NCBI RefSeq assembly: GCF_018139625.1
Contig: NZ_JAGSOH010000005.1
Location: 1 to 64,000, forward strand
DNA from: Actinospica acidithermotolerans
GTDB taxonomy: Bacteria; Actinomycetota; Actinomycetes; Streptomycetales; Catenulisporaceae
Length of the DNA stretch: 64,000 nucleotides
Reading direction: 5' to 3'
Shown piece by piece: positions 52,907-60,541 of the stretch. How positions within the stretch are numbered: position 1 is the first letter of the stretch; each line of letters starts with the position of its first letter. The notes below the pieces were generated by a model, which worked only from the letters and a program-made list of their open reading frames with translations, had not been told where the DNA came from and ran no database searches. The position numbers and the translations under genes were made by a program.

Positions 52907-53100
52907 TGTTCCTCCTGCGCGCTACCCGGCGGGTCCTGTGCGGATCCGGCGGCGCGGTTGACGACGATTGAATCTGGGGTGCGGCTCCGGCCGCGCGGGC
53001 AGGAGGATCCCACCTGCGCGCACCTCGGCTCGCGACATCTTACGCAATACCCATAGCCCAAAGCGAGAGTGCGGCTCGATCTGAACTGCGGATCGGGAAA

Positions 53101-53146
53101 AGGTAAAGGCCCCGGACCGATTCATTTACGGCCAGGGGCCTTACCT
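53101..53146 (-). terminator. Intrinsic terminator between rplO and secY
   Basis: AGGTAAAGGCCCC (53101-53113) pairs with GGGGCCTTACCT (53135-53146) with one bulge. On the minus strand the stem runs into TTTTCCC. It separates the rpsH-rplO unit from secY-adk-map. Confidence 0.75.
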
Positions 53147-53172: not shown

Positions 53173-53643
53173 TTACTTCGCGCCGAGCTCCTCGGCGGTG
53201 CCGCCGGCGGCGGCGATCTTCGTCTTGGCGGACGCGGAGTACGCGTCGACCTTGACGTTGAGCGCCACCGAGACCTCGCCGTTGCCGAGCACCTTGACGA
53301 GCTCGCCCTTGCGGACCGCGCCCTTGGCCACCAGGTCGGCGACGGTGACGTCGCCGCCCTGCGGGTAGAGCTCGGCCAGCTTGGCCAGGTTCACGATCTG
53401 GTACTCGACGCGGAACGGGTTCTTGAAGCCCCGGAGCTTGGGCAGCCGCATGTGCAGCGGCATCTGCCCGCCCTCGAAGCGCTCCGGAACCTGGTAGCGC
53501 GCCTTCGTGCCCTTGGTACCGCGGCCGGCGGTCTTGCCCTTGGAGCCCTCGCCACGGCCCACGCGGGTCTTGGCGGTCTTGGCACCGGGGGCGGGCCGCA
53601 GGTGGTGCACCTTCAGCACGTGCTGCTTCTCCTGCTCGGACAT
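53173..53643 (-). CDS. rplO: 50S ribosomal protein L15
   Basis: 156 residues: [60 protein letters not shown], then an Ala-rich end with EELGAK. The start overlaps the rpmD stop by one base (TGATG). Confidence 0.98.
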
Positions 53644-53825
53644 CAGTCGACCTCCTCAACCTTCACGAGGTGGCGGACGGTGAGGATCATGCCGCGGAAC
53701 TCCGGGCGGTCGTCCTTGATCACCGTGTCGTTGATCCGCTTGAGGCCGAGCGACCGCAGCGTCTCGCGGTGGTTCTGCTTCGAGCCGATCTTCGAACGGA
53801 CCTGCGTGATCTTCAACTTAGCCAT
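53643..53825 (-). CDS. rpmD: 50S ribosomal protein L30
   Basis: 60 residues: [60 protein letters not shown]. Normal length; it lies 2 bp after rpsE. Confidence 0.98.
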
Positions 53826-53827
53826 GC

Positions 53828-54460
53828 TCAGGCCCCCACTCCGGCGCGGGCGCGCAGCAGGGCGGCCGGGGCGACGTCCTCGAGCGGCAGGCCGCGGCGG
53901 GCCGCGATCTCCTCGGGACGCACCAGGCCCTGCAGCGCGGCGACGGTGGCGTGCACCACGTTGATCGCGTTGTCCGAGCCCATGGACTTGGACAGCACGT
54001 CGTGGATGCCCGCGCACTCGAGCACGGCGCGGACGGCGCCGCCGGCGATCACACCGGTACCGGCCGAGGCCGGCTTCAGCATGACCACACCGGCCGCGGC
54101 CTCGCCGACGATCGGGTGCGGGATGGTGCCCTGGATGCGCGGCACCTTGAAGAAGTGCTTCTTGGCCTCCTCGACGCCCTTGGCGATCGCCGCGGGCACC
54201 TCCTTGGCCTTGCCGTAGCCGACGCCGACCGTGCCGTCGCCGTCGCCGACGACCACGAGGGCGGTGAAGCTGAAGCGACGACCGCCCTTCACGACCTTGG
54301 CGACGCGGTTGATCGTCACGACGCGCTCGACGTACGCGGTCTTCTCGGCGGCGGGGGCGTTGTCCTGGTTCCGACGGTCGCGACGATCCCGACGCTCTCC
54401 GCCTTCACCACCGCGACCCTGGCCGCCCTGGCCGCCTCCGCGGCGCTGCTGGGGGGGCAT
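53828..54460 (-). CDS. rpsE: 30S ribosomal protein S5
   Basis: 210 residues from ATG 54460. A Gly/Arg/Gln-rich N-terminal extension ([17 protein letters not shown]) precedes the S5 core: [59 protein letters not shown] and [20 protein letters not shown]. Canonical. Confidence 0.98.
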
Positions 54461-54500
54461 CAGAAATCCCTCATTTCGGTGTTCGGGTTCATGGCCGTCA

Positions 54501-54884
54501 TCAGAAGTCCAGTCCGGCGTCGCGGGCGCCCTCGGCGACCGCGGCCACCCGGCCGTGGAACTTGTTGCCGCCGCGGTCGAACACGACCGTGGAGACACCC
54601 GCGGCCTTGGCGCGCTCGGCGACGAGCTTGCCGACCTCGCGCGAGAGGTCCACCTTCTTGCCGTCGGCGGTGCGCAGGCCCGACTCCATGGTGGAGGCGG
54701 ACGCGACCGTGTGGCCGAGCTTGTCGTTGACGACCTGGGCGACCATGTGCCGGTTCGAGCGCGTCACGACGAGGCGCGGACGCTCGGCGGTGCCGCTCAC
54801 GTGCTTGCGCACGCGGATGTGGCGGCGCTTGCGCGCGACGGACTTCTTGGCGTTGCCCTTGGCGATCTTGTAACCGTAAGCCAT
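54501..54884 (-). CDS. rplR: 50S ribosomal protein L18
   Basis: 127 residues: [40 protein letters not shown] and [20 protein letters not shown]. Binds 5S rRNA. It follows rplF by 2 bp. Confidence 0.98.
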
Positions 54885-54886
54885 GG

Positions 54887-55426
54887 CTACTTACCAGCCT
54901 TTCCGACCTTGCGGCGGATGACCTCGCCCTGGTACCGCACACCCTTGGCCTTGTAGGGGTCGGGCTTGCGCAGCTTACGGATGTTCGCCGCGGTCTCACC
55001 GACCAACTGCTTGTCGATGCCGGAGACCGTGAAGCGGGTCGGGGTCTCCACCGCGAAGCTGATGCCGTCGGCGGGCTCGACCACGATCGGGTGCGAGTAG
55101 CCGAGGGCGAACTCCAGGCTGGAGCCCTTGGCCGTCACGCGGTAACCGACACCCGAGATCTCCAGGACCTTCGAGTAGCCGGTCGTCACGCCGACGATCA
55201 TGTTGTTGATCAGGGTGCGGGTCAGGCCGTGGCGCTCCTTGGCGGCGCGCTCGTCGTTGGGACGGGTCACCTGCAGGGTGCCGTCCTCCGCCTTCTCGAC
55301 CGAGATCGGGGTCACGACGGTGTGGCTCAGGGTGCCCTTCGGGCCCTTCACCGTCACCTCGGAACCGGAGATGCTGACTTCGACGCCGGCCGGAACCGGG
55401 ATCGGCAGCCGTCCAATACGAGACAT
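54887..55426 (-). CDS. rplF: 50S ribosomal protein L6
   Basis: 179 residues: [60 protein letters not shown] and the end [20 protein letters not shown]. Canonical length and order. Confidence 0.98.
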
Positions 55427-55450
55427 AGCTGTCTTTACTCCCTTCCGGAC

Positions 55451-55849
55451 TTACCAGACGTAGGCGAGGACTTCTCCGCCCACGCCCTTCTTGGCGGCCT
55501 GTCGGTCGGTCAGCAGACCGGACGACGAGGAGATGATGGCGATGCCGAGGCCGCCGAGGACCTTCGGCAGGTTGGTCGACTTCGCGTAGACGCGCAGACC
55601 CGGCTTCGAGATGCGCTTGATGCCGGCGATCGACCGCTCGCGGTTCGGGCCGAACTTGAGGTCGATGATCAGGTTCTTCCCGACCTCGAGGTCCTCGACG
55701 GCGTAGCCGGCGATGTAGCCCTCCTGCTTGAGGATCTCGGCGATGCGAGCCTTCAGCTTGGAGGACGGCATGGTGACCTGGTCGTGGTACGCCGCGTTGG
55801 CGTTGCGCAGACGCGTGAGCATGTCTGCGATCGGGTCAGTCATGGTCAT
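55451..55849 (-). CDS. rpsH: 30S ribosomal protein S8
   Basis: 132 residues: [60 protein letters not shown] and [20 protein letters not shown]. It is normally directly after rpsN; here it heads its own unit because two unrelated genes intervene. AAGG lies 7 nt before the start. Confidence 0.98.
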
Positions 55850-56173
55850 AAGGGGGCCTTGGGCCTTCCCACCGCGGTTTCCGGCCCGTGCGCATCGCGG
55901 AACCGTCTCGCGTGGAGAGCGGTGCCCTTGATTCGCCGGGAGGACCTACGGCGTCGTAGTAACAGAGCTTCAGGGCACCTGGGGAAGCCGAAACCGGCCG
56001 GACCAGCAGCCACCGGGTATCCGCGGCGGCCGGGGGCCGTGCGGACCAGGGTGACGGACTCGCTTTCGCTAGAGCGCCCACACGCGGGCACACCCTGGGG
56101 CGGGCACGCGTTGAGCCAGAGTAACAGAGCGGTCCCGGCCCGCCCAAATCGGACAGCGACCATACTGCGGGCC
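55850..56173. other. Divergent promoter region between rpsH and the VOC gene
   Basis: This 324-bp stretch has no supported gene; frames through it are Arg/Pro-rich. It must carry the promoter and leader for the separated rpsH-rplO unit and for the VOC gene on the other strand. I see no clear promoter hexamers. Confidence 0.5.
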
Positions 56174-56596
56174 ATGACTGAACCCAAGCACGGAGCACTC
56201 TCCCAGCACGGAGCCCTCCACCACGTCGAGCTCTGGACCCCCGACCTGGCCCGCGCGGTCGCCTCGTTCGGCTGGCTGCTGGAGGCGCTGGGCTACGCCG
56301 AGTACCAGAACTGGGAGGCGGGCCGCAGCTGGCGGCTCGGCGCCACGTACATCGTCGTCGAGCAGTCGCCGGCCATGAGCGCGGACGGGCACGACCGGCT
56401 CCGGCCCGGCCTGAACCACCTGGCGTTCCACGTCGAGGACGCGGCCGCCGTCGAGACGCTGGCGAGCGAGGCGGCCCGGCACGGCTGGCGGCTGATGTTC
56501 CCCGACAGCCATCCGCACGCGGGCGGCGAGGAGCACTACGCCGCCTACCTGGAGAACGAGGACGGCTTCGAGGTCGAGCTCGTCGCGGCGCGCTGA
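56174..56596 (+). CDS. VOC-family (glyoxalase/dioxygenase superfamily) protein
   Basis: 140 residues: HHVELWTPDLARAVASFGWL with the first metal-type His, LNHLAFHVEDAAAVETLASE, and AAYLENEDGFEVELVAA with a Glu in the metal position. Single-domain size. The role is unknown (glyoxalase-like, or antibiotic-binding). It is on the plus strand inside the otherwise minus-strand ribosomal region. Confidence 0.85.
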   Translation: MTEPKHGALSQHGALHHVELWTPDLARAVASFGWLLEALGYAEYQNWEAGRSWRLGATYIVVEQSPAMSADGHDRLRPGLNHLAFHVEDAAAVETLASEAARHGWRLMFPDSHPHAGGEEHYAAYLENEDGFEVELVAAR

Positions 56597-56605
56597 CCGC
56601 CGGGG

Positions 56606-57610
56606 TCAGAACCGGCGGTTGATCAGATGGAAGGCCGGTGCGGCGGCCCGAGCCGCCGAGCGCAGCGAGTGGAAGACCGTCGGGTGCAGGCCCGACATGA
56701 TCGTCTCCAGGCGGTCGGTGCTGGTCCTGCTGGAGACGACGAGCCGGTCGATCCGCAGCGGGTGGCAGGAGCCGGGCGCGGCGAGCCGGTGGTTGTACAG
56801 GAAGGCCGACCGGTAGCCCGCCTCCTTGATCGCGCGGTGGGCGTGCTCGTCCTCGTTGCCGTTCGGGTAGGCGAAGGACGTGGGCGGGCGCCCGAGCATG
56901 TCGGTCAGCGCCTCGTGCGCGTGCAGCACCTCGGCGCGGGCCTGGCTAGGCTCGCAGCGGTCCAGGCAGGGGTGGGTCAGGGTGTGGTTTCCCACGGTGA
57001 TCCCGCCGACCTCGAGCTCCCGCAGCTCGGCCGCCGTCAGCTGCGCGCGACGGGGAGCCGGAACCGTCGCCGTGCCCCGCAGCTCTTGCAGCGCCCGCTG
57101 CCGGTCCTTCTCCGGCAGCAGCTTGACGGTGTGCACGAGGATCCCGGGGGGCGCGGGCGGCACCAGGCGAGTCGTGCCGCCGTGCCGGGCCAGGTGCTCG
57201 ACCTCGTCCCACCAGTAGGGCGTGTCGGTCCCGATCAGGCCCGGGATCACGAAGCACACGGCCGGCAGCCCGCGCTCGGCCAGCAGCGGCAGCGCGTGGG
57301 TGTGCACGCTGCGATCGCCGTCGTCGAACGTGATCAGCACGCTGTGCGGCGGCAGCGCGGGCCCGCCGTTCACCGCCTCCTCGACCTCGTGCAGCGACAC
57401 CGGCTGGAAGCCGCGCTGCACGCGGTCGAGGTGGTCCGCGAAGCCCGCCGGATCGTCGATGCCGTGGTACCCGAGCACGGCCAGGCGGCGCGCCGCGCGA
57501 CGCCGGAACCACGCCTGGACGGGTGAACCGCGCAGCACGCGATCGCTGCCGTGCCAGCCGTCCCAGCGCCCGTAGCAGCCCGCGAGCAGCGCCTTGAGCT
57601 CAGGATTCAT
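56606..57610 (-). CDS. Polysaccharide deacetylase (NodB homology, CE4)
   Basis: 334 residues. NodB motif 1 is TFDDGD (94-99); motif 2 is NHTLTHP with metal ligands His209 and His213; later FAYPNGNEDEHAHRAIKEAG. No signal peptide is seen, so it may act in the cytoplasm or at the membrane face, for example on a glycan precursor. It is convergent with the VOC gene (9-bp gap) and lies between rpsN and rpsH, where relatives have none. Confidence 0.88.
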   Translation of the reverse strand: MNPELKALLAGCYGRWDGWHGSDRVLRGSPVQAWFRRRAARRLAVLGYHGIDDPAGFADHLDRVQRGFQPVSLHEVEEAVNGGPALPPHSVLITFDDGDRSVHTHALPLLAERGLPAVCFVIPGLIGTDTPYWWDEVEHLARHGGTTRLVPPAPPGILVHTVKLLPEKDRQRALQELRGTATVPAPRRAQLTAAELRELEVGGITVGNHTLTHPCLDRCEPSQARAEVLHAHEALTDMLGRPPTSFAYPNGNEDEHAHRAIKEAGYRSAFLYNHRLAAPGSCHPLRIDRLVVSSRTSTDRLETIMSGLHPTVFHSLRSAARAAAPAFHLINRRF

Positions 57611-58003
57611 GCTCTGGCCAGCGCCGGGAAGCTGGCGCCGGCGTAGCCCGTGTCCACGAACAGGGGGTCGATCGGCGCTTGACGAGCGAGCGAGCTCGCG
57701 GCGATGCGGCGAGCGAGTGAGCTGCACTGCACGGCTGCTCCTCCTGAGTCGTGTTCGGGCTCGGACACTCGAAGCTTGACGCCCTGCTAAGACTGTATAG
57801 GGCAATTCATCCAGTGTGGATGGAATGTCGCTGCGGACACGCCCTGCGGGCATCTCAGCCAACTCCACCACGCCCGCCGCCAGGCCGCGCGATTGCCGGA
57901 AAAAGCGATTGCCCCCGCACTCTCGTGCGGGGGCAATCACCTATGACAGCTGTATGACAGCTCGCGGCCACCGGATCTGACGGCCCGGCAGCTGCAGGTC
58001 AGC
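57611..58003. other. Gap between the polysaccharide deacetylase and rpsN
   Basis: 393 bp without a gene. It holds short repeated GAGCGAGCGAGC and GGCGAGCGAGTGAGC blocks (57685-57725), presumably the deacetylase promoter, the rpsN terminator (57901-57938) and a short direct repeat TATGACAGCT (57942 and 57953). Confidence 0.6.
57901..57938 (-). terminator. Strong intrinsic terminator after rpsN
   Basis: A perfect 14-bp stem (GATTGCCCCCGCAC paired with GTGCGGGGGCAATC) with a 4-base loop, followed on the minus strand by GCTTTTT. It is a textbook rho-independent terminator, ending the rplN-rplX-rplE-rpsN unit. Confidence 0.92.
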
Positions 58004-58189
58004 CTACCAGGACGACTTCGTCACGCCCGGCAGCTCGCCCGCGTGGGCCATCTCGCGAAGGCAGACGCGGCACAGGCCAAACTTGCGGTACACCGAGTGC
58101 GGACGGCCGCACTTCTGGCACCGGGTGTAGGCCCGGACCTTGAACTTCGGCTTCTTGTTCGCCTTGTTGATCAGCGCGGTCTTCGCCAT
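58004..58189 (-). CDS. rpsN: 30S ribosomal protein S14 (type Z)
   Basis: 61 residues: [20 protein letters not shown] and [17 protein letters not shown]. Cys24, Cys27, Cys40 and Cys43 form a zinc site, so this is the short zinc-binding form. It is the last gene before the interruption of the spc block. Confidence 0.98.
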
Positions 58190-58191
58190 GA

Positions 58192-58767
58192 TCAGGCCTC
58201 CTTGAAGGGGAAGCCGAGCAGCTTGAGCAGCGCGCGGCCTTCGTCGTCGTTGGTCGCGGTGGTGACCACCGTGATGTCCATGCCCCGGACGCGGTCGATC
58301 TTGTCGGGGTCGATCTCGTGGAACATGGACTGCTCGTTGAGACCGAAGGTGTAGTTGCCCTTGCCGTCGAACTGCTTCGGCGACAGGCCGCGGAAGTCGC
58401 GGATGCGCGGCAGCGCGATGCTGACCAGGCGGTCCAGGAACTCCCACATGTAGTCACCGCGCAGGGTGACGTGCGTGCCGATCGGCTGGCCCTCGCGCAG
58501 CTTGAACTGCGCGATGGACTTGCGGGCCTTGGTCACGGCCGGCTTCTGGCCGGTGATGGCCTGCAGGTCGCGGATCGCGCCCTCGATCAGCTTCGAGTCA
58601 CGGGCGGCGTCGCCGACACCCATGTTCACGACGACCTTGGTGACGCCCGGGATCTGCATGACGTTCGCGTAGTTGAACTGCTCACGCAGCGCCGGAGCGA
58701 TCTCGGCCTTGTAGCGGGTCTTCAGACGCGGGGTGACCTTGGTCTGAGTCTCCTCGGTGACAGTCAT
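58192..58767 (-). CDS. rplE: 50S ribosomal protein L5
   Basis: 191 residues from ATG 58767: [60 protein letters not shown] and [18 protein letters not shown]. The start overlaps the rplX stop by one base. Confidence 0.98.
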
Positions 58768-59135
58768 CAGATCGCCTCTCCGGTCTTCTTCGCGAACCGC
58801 ACGGAACGCGTGACCGTCTTCTTGCTGCCGTCGGGCAGGGTGCGCTCCTGCTCCTCGCGCCGGAAGCCGACGCGGGTGACGACCTTCTTGCCTTCGTGCT
58901 CGACGACCAGCATCACGTTGCTGACCTGGATCGGCGCCTCGGTCGTGATGATGCCGCCGGTCTGCGAGCCACGAGCGGTCTGGCCGACCTTCGTGTGCTT
59001 CTTGACGCGGTTGACACCCTCGACGATGACCTTGCCGTCGCGGGGCAGGGACTGGATGACCTTGCCCTGCAGGCCCTTGTCCTTGCCGGCGATGACCTGG
59101 ACCAGGTCGCCCTTGCGGATCTTCTGCTTGGCCAT
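58767..59135 (-). CDS. rplX: 50S ribosomal protein L24
   Basis: 122 residues: [20 protein letters not shown] (KOW motif), [20 protein letters not shown] and [20 protein letters not shown]. It lies 2 bp after rplN. Confidence 0.98.
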
Positions 59136-59137
59136 GG

Positions 59138-59506
59138 TCAGAGCACCTCCGGCGCCAGCGAGATGATGCGCATGTAGCGCTTGTCACGCAGCTCACGGCC
59201 GACCGGGCCGAAGATGCGGGTGCCGCGCGGGTCGCCGCCGTCCTTGATCAGGACGGCCGCGTTCTCGTCGAAGCGGATGTACGAGCCGTCCGGACGACGG
59301 CGCTCCTTGACGGTGCGCACGACGACCGCCTTGACGACTTCGCCCTTCTTCACGCCCGCGCCGGGCAGCGCGTCCTTGACGGTGGCGACGATCACGTCGC
59401 CGATGCCGGCGTAGCGGCGGCTGGAGCCACCGAGAACCCGGATGCACAGGATTTCCTTGGCACCGGTGTTGTCGGCGACCCGCAGCCGCGATTCCTGCTG
59501 AATCAC
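59138..59506 (-). CDS. rplN: 50S ribosomal protein L14
   Basis: 122 residues: [40 protein letters not shown], and [20 protein letters not shown]. First gene of the spc-type unit, after a terminator hairpin. Confidence 0.98.
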
Positions 59507-59565
59507 GTTCTACTCCTGACTCGTGGCCGCGGTCGTTGCGTCCGCGGCCGTGTCTCTTCGCAGAA

Positions 59566-59613
59566 AGCCCCGCCGAGCCCGGCGGATCCGTACGGACCCG
59601 CCGGGACGGGGCT
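59566..59613 (-). terminator. Terminator between rpsQ and rplN (S10/spc boundary)
   Basis: The outer arms AGCCCCG (59566-59572) and CGGGGCT (59607-59613) and the inner CCCGGCGG/CCGCCGGG arms form a long stem, followed on the minus strand by TTTCTGCG. A second hairpin GGCCGCGG/CCGCGGCC lies at 59525-59549. Confidence 0.75.
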
Positions 59614-59619
59614 GCTTGC

Positions 59620-59904
59620 CTACTTGGCCTTCTCGAGGATCTCGACCACGCGCCAGCGCTTGGTCGCCGAGAGGGGCCGGGTCTCCATGAGCAGCACGCG
59701 GTCGCCGATGCCACAGCTGTTCTGCTCGTCGTGGGCCTTCAGCTTGCTGGTACGGCGCATGACCTTGCCGTACAGCGGGTGCTTGACCCTGTCCTCGACC
59801 GACACGACGACGGTCTTGTCCATCTTGTCCGACACGACAAGGCCCTCACGGGTCTTGCGCGCGCCGCGCTCGTTCTGCTCCACGTTGGTGTCCTCGCTCA
59901 TCAC
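59620..59904 (-). CDS. rpsQ: 30S ribosomal protein S17
   Basis: 94 residues: [40 protein letters not shown], and [20 protein letters not shown]. The start overlaps the rpmC stop (ATGA). Confidence 0.98.
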
Positions 59905-60122
59905 TTGGCACCTTCCGTGATGCCCAGCTCGCGCTCACGCTGGATCGTGTAGATCCGCGCGATGTCCGCCTTGACGGCCTTCATCCGGCCATGGTTCTCC
60001 AGCTGGCCGGTGGCCTGCTGGAAGCGGAGGTTGAACAGCTCCTCCTTGGCCTCGCGCAGCTTGTCGACCAGGGCCTCGTCCGACAGCTCACGCAGTTCGT
60101 GCGTCGCGGTTCCGGCTGCCAT
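59901..60122 (-). CDS. rpmC: 50S ribosomal protein L29
   Basis: 73 residues: [40 protein letters not shown] and [16 protein letters not shown]. Its start overlaps the rplP stop by one base. Confidence 0.98.
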
Positions 60123-60541
60123 CAGATGTCACCTGCCTCGCGCTTGATGATGCGGCACTTGCACGGGAGCTTGTGCGCGGCGCGCAGCAGGGCCTCCCGG
60201 GCCACCTTCTCGTTCGGGTACGAGAGCTCGAAGAGCACCCGGCCCGGCTTGACGTTCGCGACCCACCACTCGGGCGAGCCCTTGCCGGAACCCATCCGGG
60301 TCTCGGCCGGCTTCTTGGTCAGCGGACGGTCCGGGAAGATCTGGATCCAGACCTTGCCGCCACGGCGGATGTGCCGGTTGATCGCGATACGAGCCGACTC
60401 GATCTGCCGGTTCGTCACGTACGCCGGGCTCAGCGCCTGGATGCCGTACTCGCCGAAGTTCAGCTCGTTGCCGCCCTTCGACGCACCGCCGCGCTCCGGG
60501 TGGTGCTGCTTGCGGTGCTTGACCCTACGCGGGATCAGCAT
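60122..60541 (-). CDS. rplP: 50S ribosomal protein L16
   Basis: 139 residues from ATG 60541: [60 protein letters not shown] and [20 protein letters not shown]. It lies 4 bp after rpsC. Confidence 0.98.

Follow-up and report, generated by a model that had tools for sequence, protein, structure and literature searches.

The E. coli-type operator through which ribosomal protein S8 controls the spc operon is a site at the start of rplE, and the genes rplN and rplX are brought under control by retroregulation. In E. coli, S8 is described as repressing spc translation at rplE, the third cistron, and the same source describes the control of spc as unknown for B. subtilis and for further species (PMC10931766). 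Eckert and Weinberg reported 20 new ribosomal protein leaders (r-leaders), none of which is listed for S8 or rpsH in their main Table 1; a further 35 leaders, described earlier, are in their supplement (PMC7247131). Autogenous translational control has been shown in mycobacteria for the rpsO leader, which responds to S15 (PMC8470358), and rpsH appears nowhere in the main text of a 2024 survey of 50 genomes (PMC11109978). In titles, abstract openings and main-text passages of the open-licence literature, we found no description of an S8 or rpsH leader in Actinobacteria, and an earlier description is possible. In 16S rRNA, the S8 site of helix 21 has as its core an internal loop with seven conserved nucleotides, including the triple G597-C643-U641, the invariant A642 and the triple A595-(A596-U644), for which T. 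thermophilus has the variant G595-(C596-G644) (PMC4176348).

Here, we describe a candidate leader RNA at rpsH, seen from a 64,000-nucleotide stretch of the Actinospica acidithermotolerans genome G000 (the window). What appears to be new, and undescribed so far, is an S8-site-like leader at rpsH, whereas r-leaders as such and S8 mimicry at E. coli rplE are known. As in the E. coli operator, the putative S8-site mimic lies on the mRNA of the operon that encodes S8, in a translation start region, and has a helix-21-like core (PMC10931766). Unlike the E. coli operator, the actinomycete element lies just before rpsH, in what is probably a separate transcription unit, and its position 641 is mostly A. 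It is thus not at the start of rplE, and in G000 a terminator-like hairpin and an insert separate it from that gene. With the r-leaders of Eckert and Weinberg it shares a covarying 5′-UTR structure upstream of a ribosomal protein operon and an rRNA mimicry that argues for the ligand (PMC7247131). The mycobacterial rpsO leader differs in forming a pseudoknot and in its ligand S15, and involves neither helix 21 nor spc (PMC8470358).

The rpsN–rpsH junction in the window and its genus

On the minus strand of the window, the spc genes run rplN-rplX-rplE-rpsN and then rpsH-rplF-rplR-rpsE-rpmD-rplO. The first-pass annotation had described this order as broken between rpsN and rpsH by a polysaccharide deacetylase gene and a plus-strand VOC gene, and this is what we find: 2,154 bp separate the rpsN stop at 58004 from the rpsH start at 55849. 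The proximal unit ends with rpsN (S14; 58004–58189, minus strand; PF00253, E 5.6e-26, with a tblastn anchor). The distal unit, which codes for six ribosomal proteins, begins with rpsH (S8; 55451–55849, minus strand; PF00410, E 4.9e-49) and continues with rplF-rplR-rpsE-rpmD-rplO (53173–55426, minus strand). Between them lie the polysaccharide deacetylase gene (56606–57610, minus strand; PF01522, E 1.2e-26) and, divergent from rpsH, the gene of a VOC/glyoxalase-fold protein (56174–56596, plus strand; PF13669, E 2.9e-12).

The perfect 14-bp hairpin with a T5 run reported after rpsN is likewise present, as a putative intrinsic terminator with a 4-nt loop and a GC between stem and T5 (57900–57938, hairpin 57907–57938, minus strand). 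Its fold of –36.5 kcal/mol (z –8.15) was equalled by 0 of 200 shuffles; a simple terminator scan missed it and returned six sites against a shuffle mean of 6.0. For the intrinsic terminator said to split rplO from secY, the hairpin is real by folding (53098–53146, hairpin about 53146–53101, minus strand), but it is imperfect, is followed by T4 and is the weaker of the two, with a z of –3.43 for the folded stretch that 2 of 200 shuffles equalled.

We label the window's genus g1 (G000 and its congeners G001 and G002), other genera of the family g2 and g3, and families of the same order f2 and f3. Strong hairpins follow rpsN in both congeners, with a T run in G001 (z –8.71) and T3 only in G002 (z –7.16). 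The rpsN–rpsH gap measures 3,093 bp in G001, where it holds a beta-helix ORF and a PKD-domain ORF, and 1,656 bp in the one-contig genome G002, where it holds two ORFs, one weakly SnoaL-like but below the Pfam cut-off, the other divergent and unmatched in Pfam. By tblastn, the window's deacetylase and VOC gene are both absent from the 20 kb around the G001 and G002 sites. The junction is uninterrupted in the nine further genomes of the family for which both genes were available: the gap is 94–97 nt in all eight such g2 genomes and 361 nt in G004 (g3), in a comparison without G012, cut by a contig end, and G013, which had no rpsH match. The junction is thus opened in g1, by different genes in each of three species. 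Gene order in the family had been proposed as a means to date the insertion; as three species carry three different inserts, there is no single insertion to which a date could be given. Within the G001 insert (L032:6985-9538), the beta-helix and PKD ORFs nearly abut in different frames and may belong to a single secreted protein whose gene a frameshift has interrupted.

We consider it extremely improbable that the insert represents a mobile element or results from mis-assembly. In favour of this reading, the 13 other genomes of the family yielded no homologue of the deacetylase at E ≤ 1e-20; homologues of the VOC gene, however, occur in 11 of these 13 at E ≤ 1e-5. Neither of the two genes called in the insert is a mobile-element gene, the repeats are short, no direct repeat pairs the insert's two ends, and the one-contig genome G002 is interrupted too. 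The VOC homologues lie far from rpsH in G002 and G003 and on a different contig in most others; none of those that could be placed is at the rpsN–rpsH junction.

The first-pass annotation had also concluded that transcription stops after rpsN and that rpsH must have its own promoter. The hairpins and a promoter-like block support both as probable, although a promoter consensus scan found no promoter above chance, including before rpsH. When the 500 nt upstream of rpsH are aligned among the three g1 genomes, unrelated sequence switches abruptly to sequence that is largely alike until the start codon. This conserved block opens with CTGTCCGATTTGGGCGG and has near its start a –35-like TTGGGC, a spacing of 18 nt and a –10-like TACTCT, TAGCCT or TAACCT in the three genomes, as read by eye. 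TTGGGC-18 nt-TACTCT (56118–56147, minus strand) is the probable rpsH promoter in the window. Because the likeness within g1 begins abruptly at the promoter-like block, the inserts sit between it and the terminator-like hairpin. The long rpsH 5′ UTR of g1 and g3 also contains the motif GGGCGCTCTAGCGAAAGCGAGTCCGTC (56053–56079, minus strand), conserved in G000, G001, G002 and G004. Among 60 genomes, its 3′ 23 nt match perfectly in these four, and the remaining 56 have no match even when 2 mismatches are allowed; the motif folds no better than shuffles.

A terminator and a promoter-like block would suffice for continued expression, as is required if the locus is an ordinary one-off insertion with rpsH on a constitutive promoter and nothing else special. 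This we regard as very unlikely, given three different inserts at the same point in three g1 genomes and a leader that is found throughout the class.

A leader RNA before rpsH

In the window, the leader extends up to the rpsH start codon (55847–55963, minus strand) and matches our covariance model R1 with 77 bits, being itself among the 20 sequences from which the model was built. Covariation analysis defines an outer helix, P1, in which the 5′ strand CGCCG (55949–55953) pairs with the 3′ strand CGGTG (55870–55874). P1 encloses an S8-site-like core with the 5′ strand AGGUCC (55942–55947), read as helix-21 positions 595–600, and the 3′ strand GGAAACC (55876–55882), read as positions 638–644. 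The purine-rich GGGAAGG that overlaps the end of P1 is a probable ribosome-binding site (55864–55870; all on the minus strand). A purine-rich stretch (GAGGAAGG, GAGAAAGG, GGGAAGG or similar) occupies this position in most distinct leaders, and the core lies 21–36 nt from the start codon. Taken singly, the window leader does not fold with a better energy than shuffles do (z –1.13), so that the case for the structure rests on covariation. Searches against Rfam 15 gave no family at E ≤ 1 in window positions 54000–60500, and none in 10 other loci.

The leader pattern adjoins rpsH also in g2 and g3 and, elsewhere in the order, in genomes of f2 and f3, and the 20 sequences behind R1 were drawn from this set. 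A genome-wide search with R1 gave one match each in 12 of 296 genomes of the phylum, that in G225 being weak and partial; this search was lossy, with 12 candidates scored per genome, and was replaced by rpsH-upstream regions located via the protein. Of 82 sources treated in this way, 77 have an R1 match at rpsH. Sixteen of the 82 are model builders; of the 66 sources not used in building, 61 match. E values are ≤ 0.01 for 72 of the 77 matches and 0.012–0.27 for the other five. L090, L094, L095, L109 and L145 gave no match at rpsH; another four matches, with E up to 10, fall at places other than rpsH.

In the 77-row alignment, 96.0% of cells pair (86.9% in shuffles), both partners vary in 9 of 14 pairs (5.4 in shuffles) and 69 cells show such changes (14.5 in shuffles); the covariation of 0.247 compares with 0.095 after shuffling and at most 0.087 in slid registers. 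As these rows were fitted to R1, a second test was anchored on the core only and not on P1. Over 65 distinct rows, P1 then pairs in 289 of 325 cells (88.9%), as against 22–49% in other registers and a mean of 239 and maximum of 253 cells in 1000 row shuffles. The whole helix is replaced in several leaders (CGCCG/CGGCG, CGTTG/CAACG, CGTAA/TTACG, CGAAC/GTTCG). A conserved secondary structure with covariation, one of the marks of an r-leader, is hence found.

These compensatory P1 changes, confined to the correct register, argue for an RNA structure and bear on whether the conserved stretch works at the DNA level, as a promoter or the binding site of a regulator, or enhances translation without regulating it, instead of serving as a feedback leader. 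The promoter-like block upstream in g1 and the end of the element at the ribosome-binding site would suit such roles. The compensatory changes and the position of the core 21–36 nt from the start codon count against such roles, although an enhancer would in itself be compatible with them; we judge a DNA site or an enhancer unlikely.

For the distribution of the core we used 99 loci, made up of 66 class loci outside the order, two further loci of the genus g7 and 31 order loci, the last including many near-identical sequences of one genus. The class loci, mostly one per genus, come from among the matches listed in a search of 246 class genomes (233 of 246 with rpsH), a list that as used omits the least similar rpsH matches. 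The core lies 10–45 nt before the rpsH start in 98 of the 99 loci, the class loci being those among the matches listed: in 65 of these 66, in 2 of 2 further g7 loci and in 31 of 31 order loci. By comparison, dinucleotide shuffles contain it in 54 of 1980 cases, and of 38 loci from outside, one (L179) has it. A relaxed search that requires P1 as well finds 92 of 99 loci, 42 of 1980 shuffles and 8 of 99 reverse complements; outside the class, core and P1 coincide in 2 of 38 loci, both more than 90 nt from the start. The leader thus has the consistent 5′-UTR position before a ribosomal protein operon that is expected of an r-leader.

Among named relatives, the core lies within 10–50 nt of rpsH in 79 of 80, the best 80 of 577, a set in which Streptomyces dominates and which overlaps the first in at least one genus. 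These best 80 of 577 with the core include Streptomyces, Kitasatospora, Brevibacterium, Rhodococcus, Nocardia and Corynebacterium, as well as Arthrobacter, Kocuria, Microbacterium, Cellulomonas, Actinomadura and Saccharopolyspora. Some of the sequences that have the core pair poorly in the usual P1 register, for example Microbacterium L260, Saccharopolyspora L285 and Agreia L295. The only miss among the best 80 of 577, L279, is leader-like with U in place of A595 (GUUGGUCC...GGAUACC). The leader core also accompanies an actinomycete-like rpsH on L297, a contig titled Acidobacteriaceae that is probably mislabelled or foreign.

Within 1.5–1.7 kb upstream of rpsH, rpsN is absent from 9 of the 66 class loci. 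In five of these nine, rplE ends 66–217 nt before rpsH, and in four neither gene is in reach; the core is present in all nine, and R1 matches in six. As judged from these sequences, the leader goes with rpsH, not with rpsN. In L095 (g7), rpsN and rpsH are 19 nt apart and both core and leader are absent; L214 and L215, also g7, keep the leader, making L095 a natural loss.

Two further patterns were seen by eye. In Streptomyces-like f2 loci such as L014, L016 and L027, an inverted repeat recurs between rpsN and the leader. Its loop contains ATG-NCN-TAGGCT, possibly a –10 region or an upstream ORF of two codons. Upstream of rpsH in L178, L179, L183, L184 and L190, all outside the class, roughly GGAAGUAC or GGAAGUGC is followed by GCAACCC or GGAAACCC; this pattern precedes the ribosome-binding site and is possibly a related or a separate leader.

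Likeness to 16S helix 21

The consensus of the leader's internal loop is AGGUC...GA(A/U)ACC, with C598-G640 variants. In helix-21 numbering, the leader has A595, G597-C643, C599-G639 and A642. Position 596-644 is G-C in 97 of 98 cores and A-U in one; 598-640 is U-A (81) or C-G (17), and 641 is A (81) or U (17). Our core pattern fixed A595, G597, C599, G639, A642 and C643 and required 596-644 and 598-640 to be paired; the constancy of these letters and pairs is therefore by construction, whereas the presence of the core in 98 of 99 loci against 54 of 1980 shuffles is not. The elements of the S8 site, G597-C643 with 641, A642 and 595-(596-644), are present in letters and pairings. The leader thus resembles helix 21 in its position 595, the N596-N644 pair, G597-C643, the 598-640 pair, C599-G639 and A642, and differs from it in having its own outer helix P1 and in running into a ribosome-binding site.

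Position 641 is mostly A in the leaders and mostly U in helix 21. Among 16S helix 21 sequences of the phylum, read by eye, A641 occurs in 7 of 26 readable ones (L149, L155, L156, L158, L160, L162, L164) and U in the others; the 26 exclude L168 and L169, which have a shorter loop, and also L174 and L175. In L158 (G088), 16S helix 21 reads AGGUC/GAAACC, identical to the leader consensus, and the same genome has no leader at its rpsH (L207). A same-order helix 21, L153, reads GCGUC/GAUACG, that is, G595-C596...G644 with U641. As those letters differ, the leader is not a copy of them. The window genome's own 16S was searched for and not found. By eye and unaligned, the window's S8 has a serine-rich SSSS where other S8 proteins have the S-T-S contact described in PMC4176348.

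The likeness in sequence and pairing strongly suggests S8 as the ligand of the leader. The distal unit encodes six ribosomal proteins, and a genuine r-leader at this place could instead answer to S5, L6, L18, L30, L15 or S14. We hold this to be quite unlikely, as the core fits the helix 21 S8 site position by position, including the natural variants at 641 and 596-644, nine class loci that have no rpsN upstream retain the core, and S8 is the spc regulator described for E. coli (PMC10931766).

A proposed two-unit spc operon with S8 feedback

We think it likely that spc is organised as two units here, and probably in most of the class, the distal one having an S8-feedback leader and, here, its own promoter. 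Somewhat less firmly, we favour the fuller reading that class-wide the rpsH leader serves S8 to autoregulate the distal spc operon, and that rpsN|rpsH is a regulatory boundary; as such, the junction would repeatedly take in foreign genes or lose rpsN.

In the working that we propose, the proximal unit would end after rpsN, and the distal unit rpsH-rplF-rplR-rpsE-rpmD-rplO would be transcribed from its own promoter with a folded leader adjoining the rpsH ribosome-binding site. Whenever S8 exceeds the available rRNA, the free protein would bind the helix-21-like internal loop and stabilise P1. Since the 3′ strand of P1 runs straight into the ribosome-binding site, S8 holding the helix closed would hinder initiation at rpsH and lower the translation of rpsH and the genes coupled to it; through coupling, the repression would extend to the downstream genes, as it does in E. 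coli. As the promoter and the feedback site both adjoin rpsH, the rpsN|rpsH junction would tolerate insertions or the loss of rpsN while S8 stays coupled to the rRNA supply. The first-pass annotation had held that ribosomal protein stoichiometry must be set by several promoters. That necessity falls away, as a class-wide leader RNA at rpsH, an apparent mimic of the S8 site, would offer post-transcriptional feedback.

The interrupted operon of one genome leads in this way to a more general leader across the class. If the proposal is true, the question of spc regulation would be answered for a large class, with a candidate in Streptomyces, Rhodococcus, Corynebacterium, Arthrobacter and others, and distant phyla would be seen to have placed the same rRNA mimic at different genes within one operon. 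The splitting of an operon that is regarded as rigid would then have an explanation as well.
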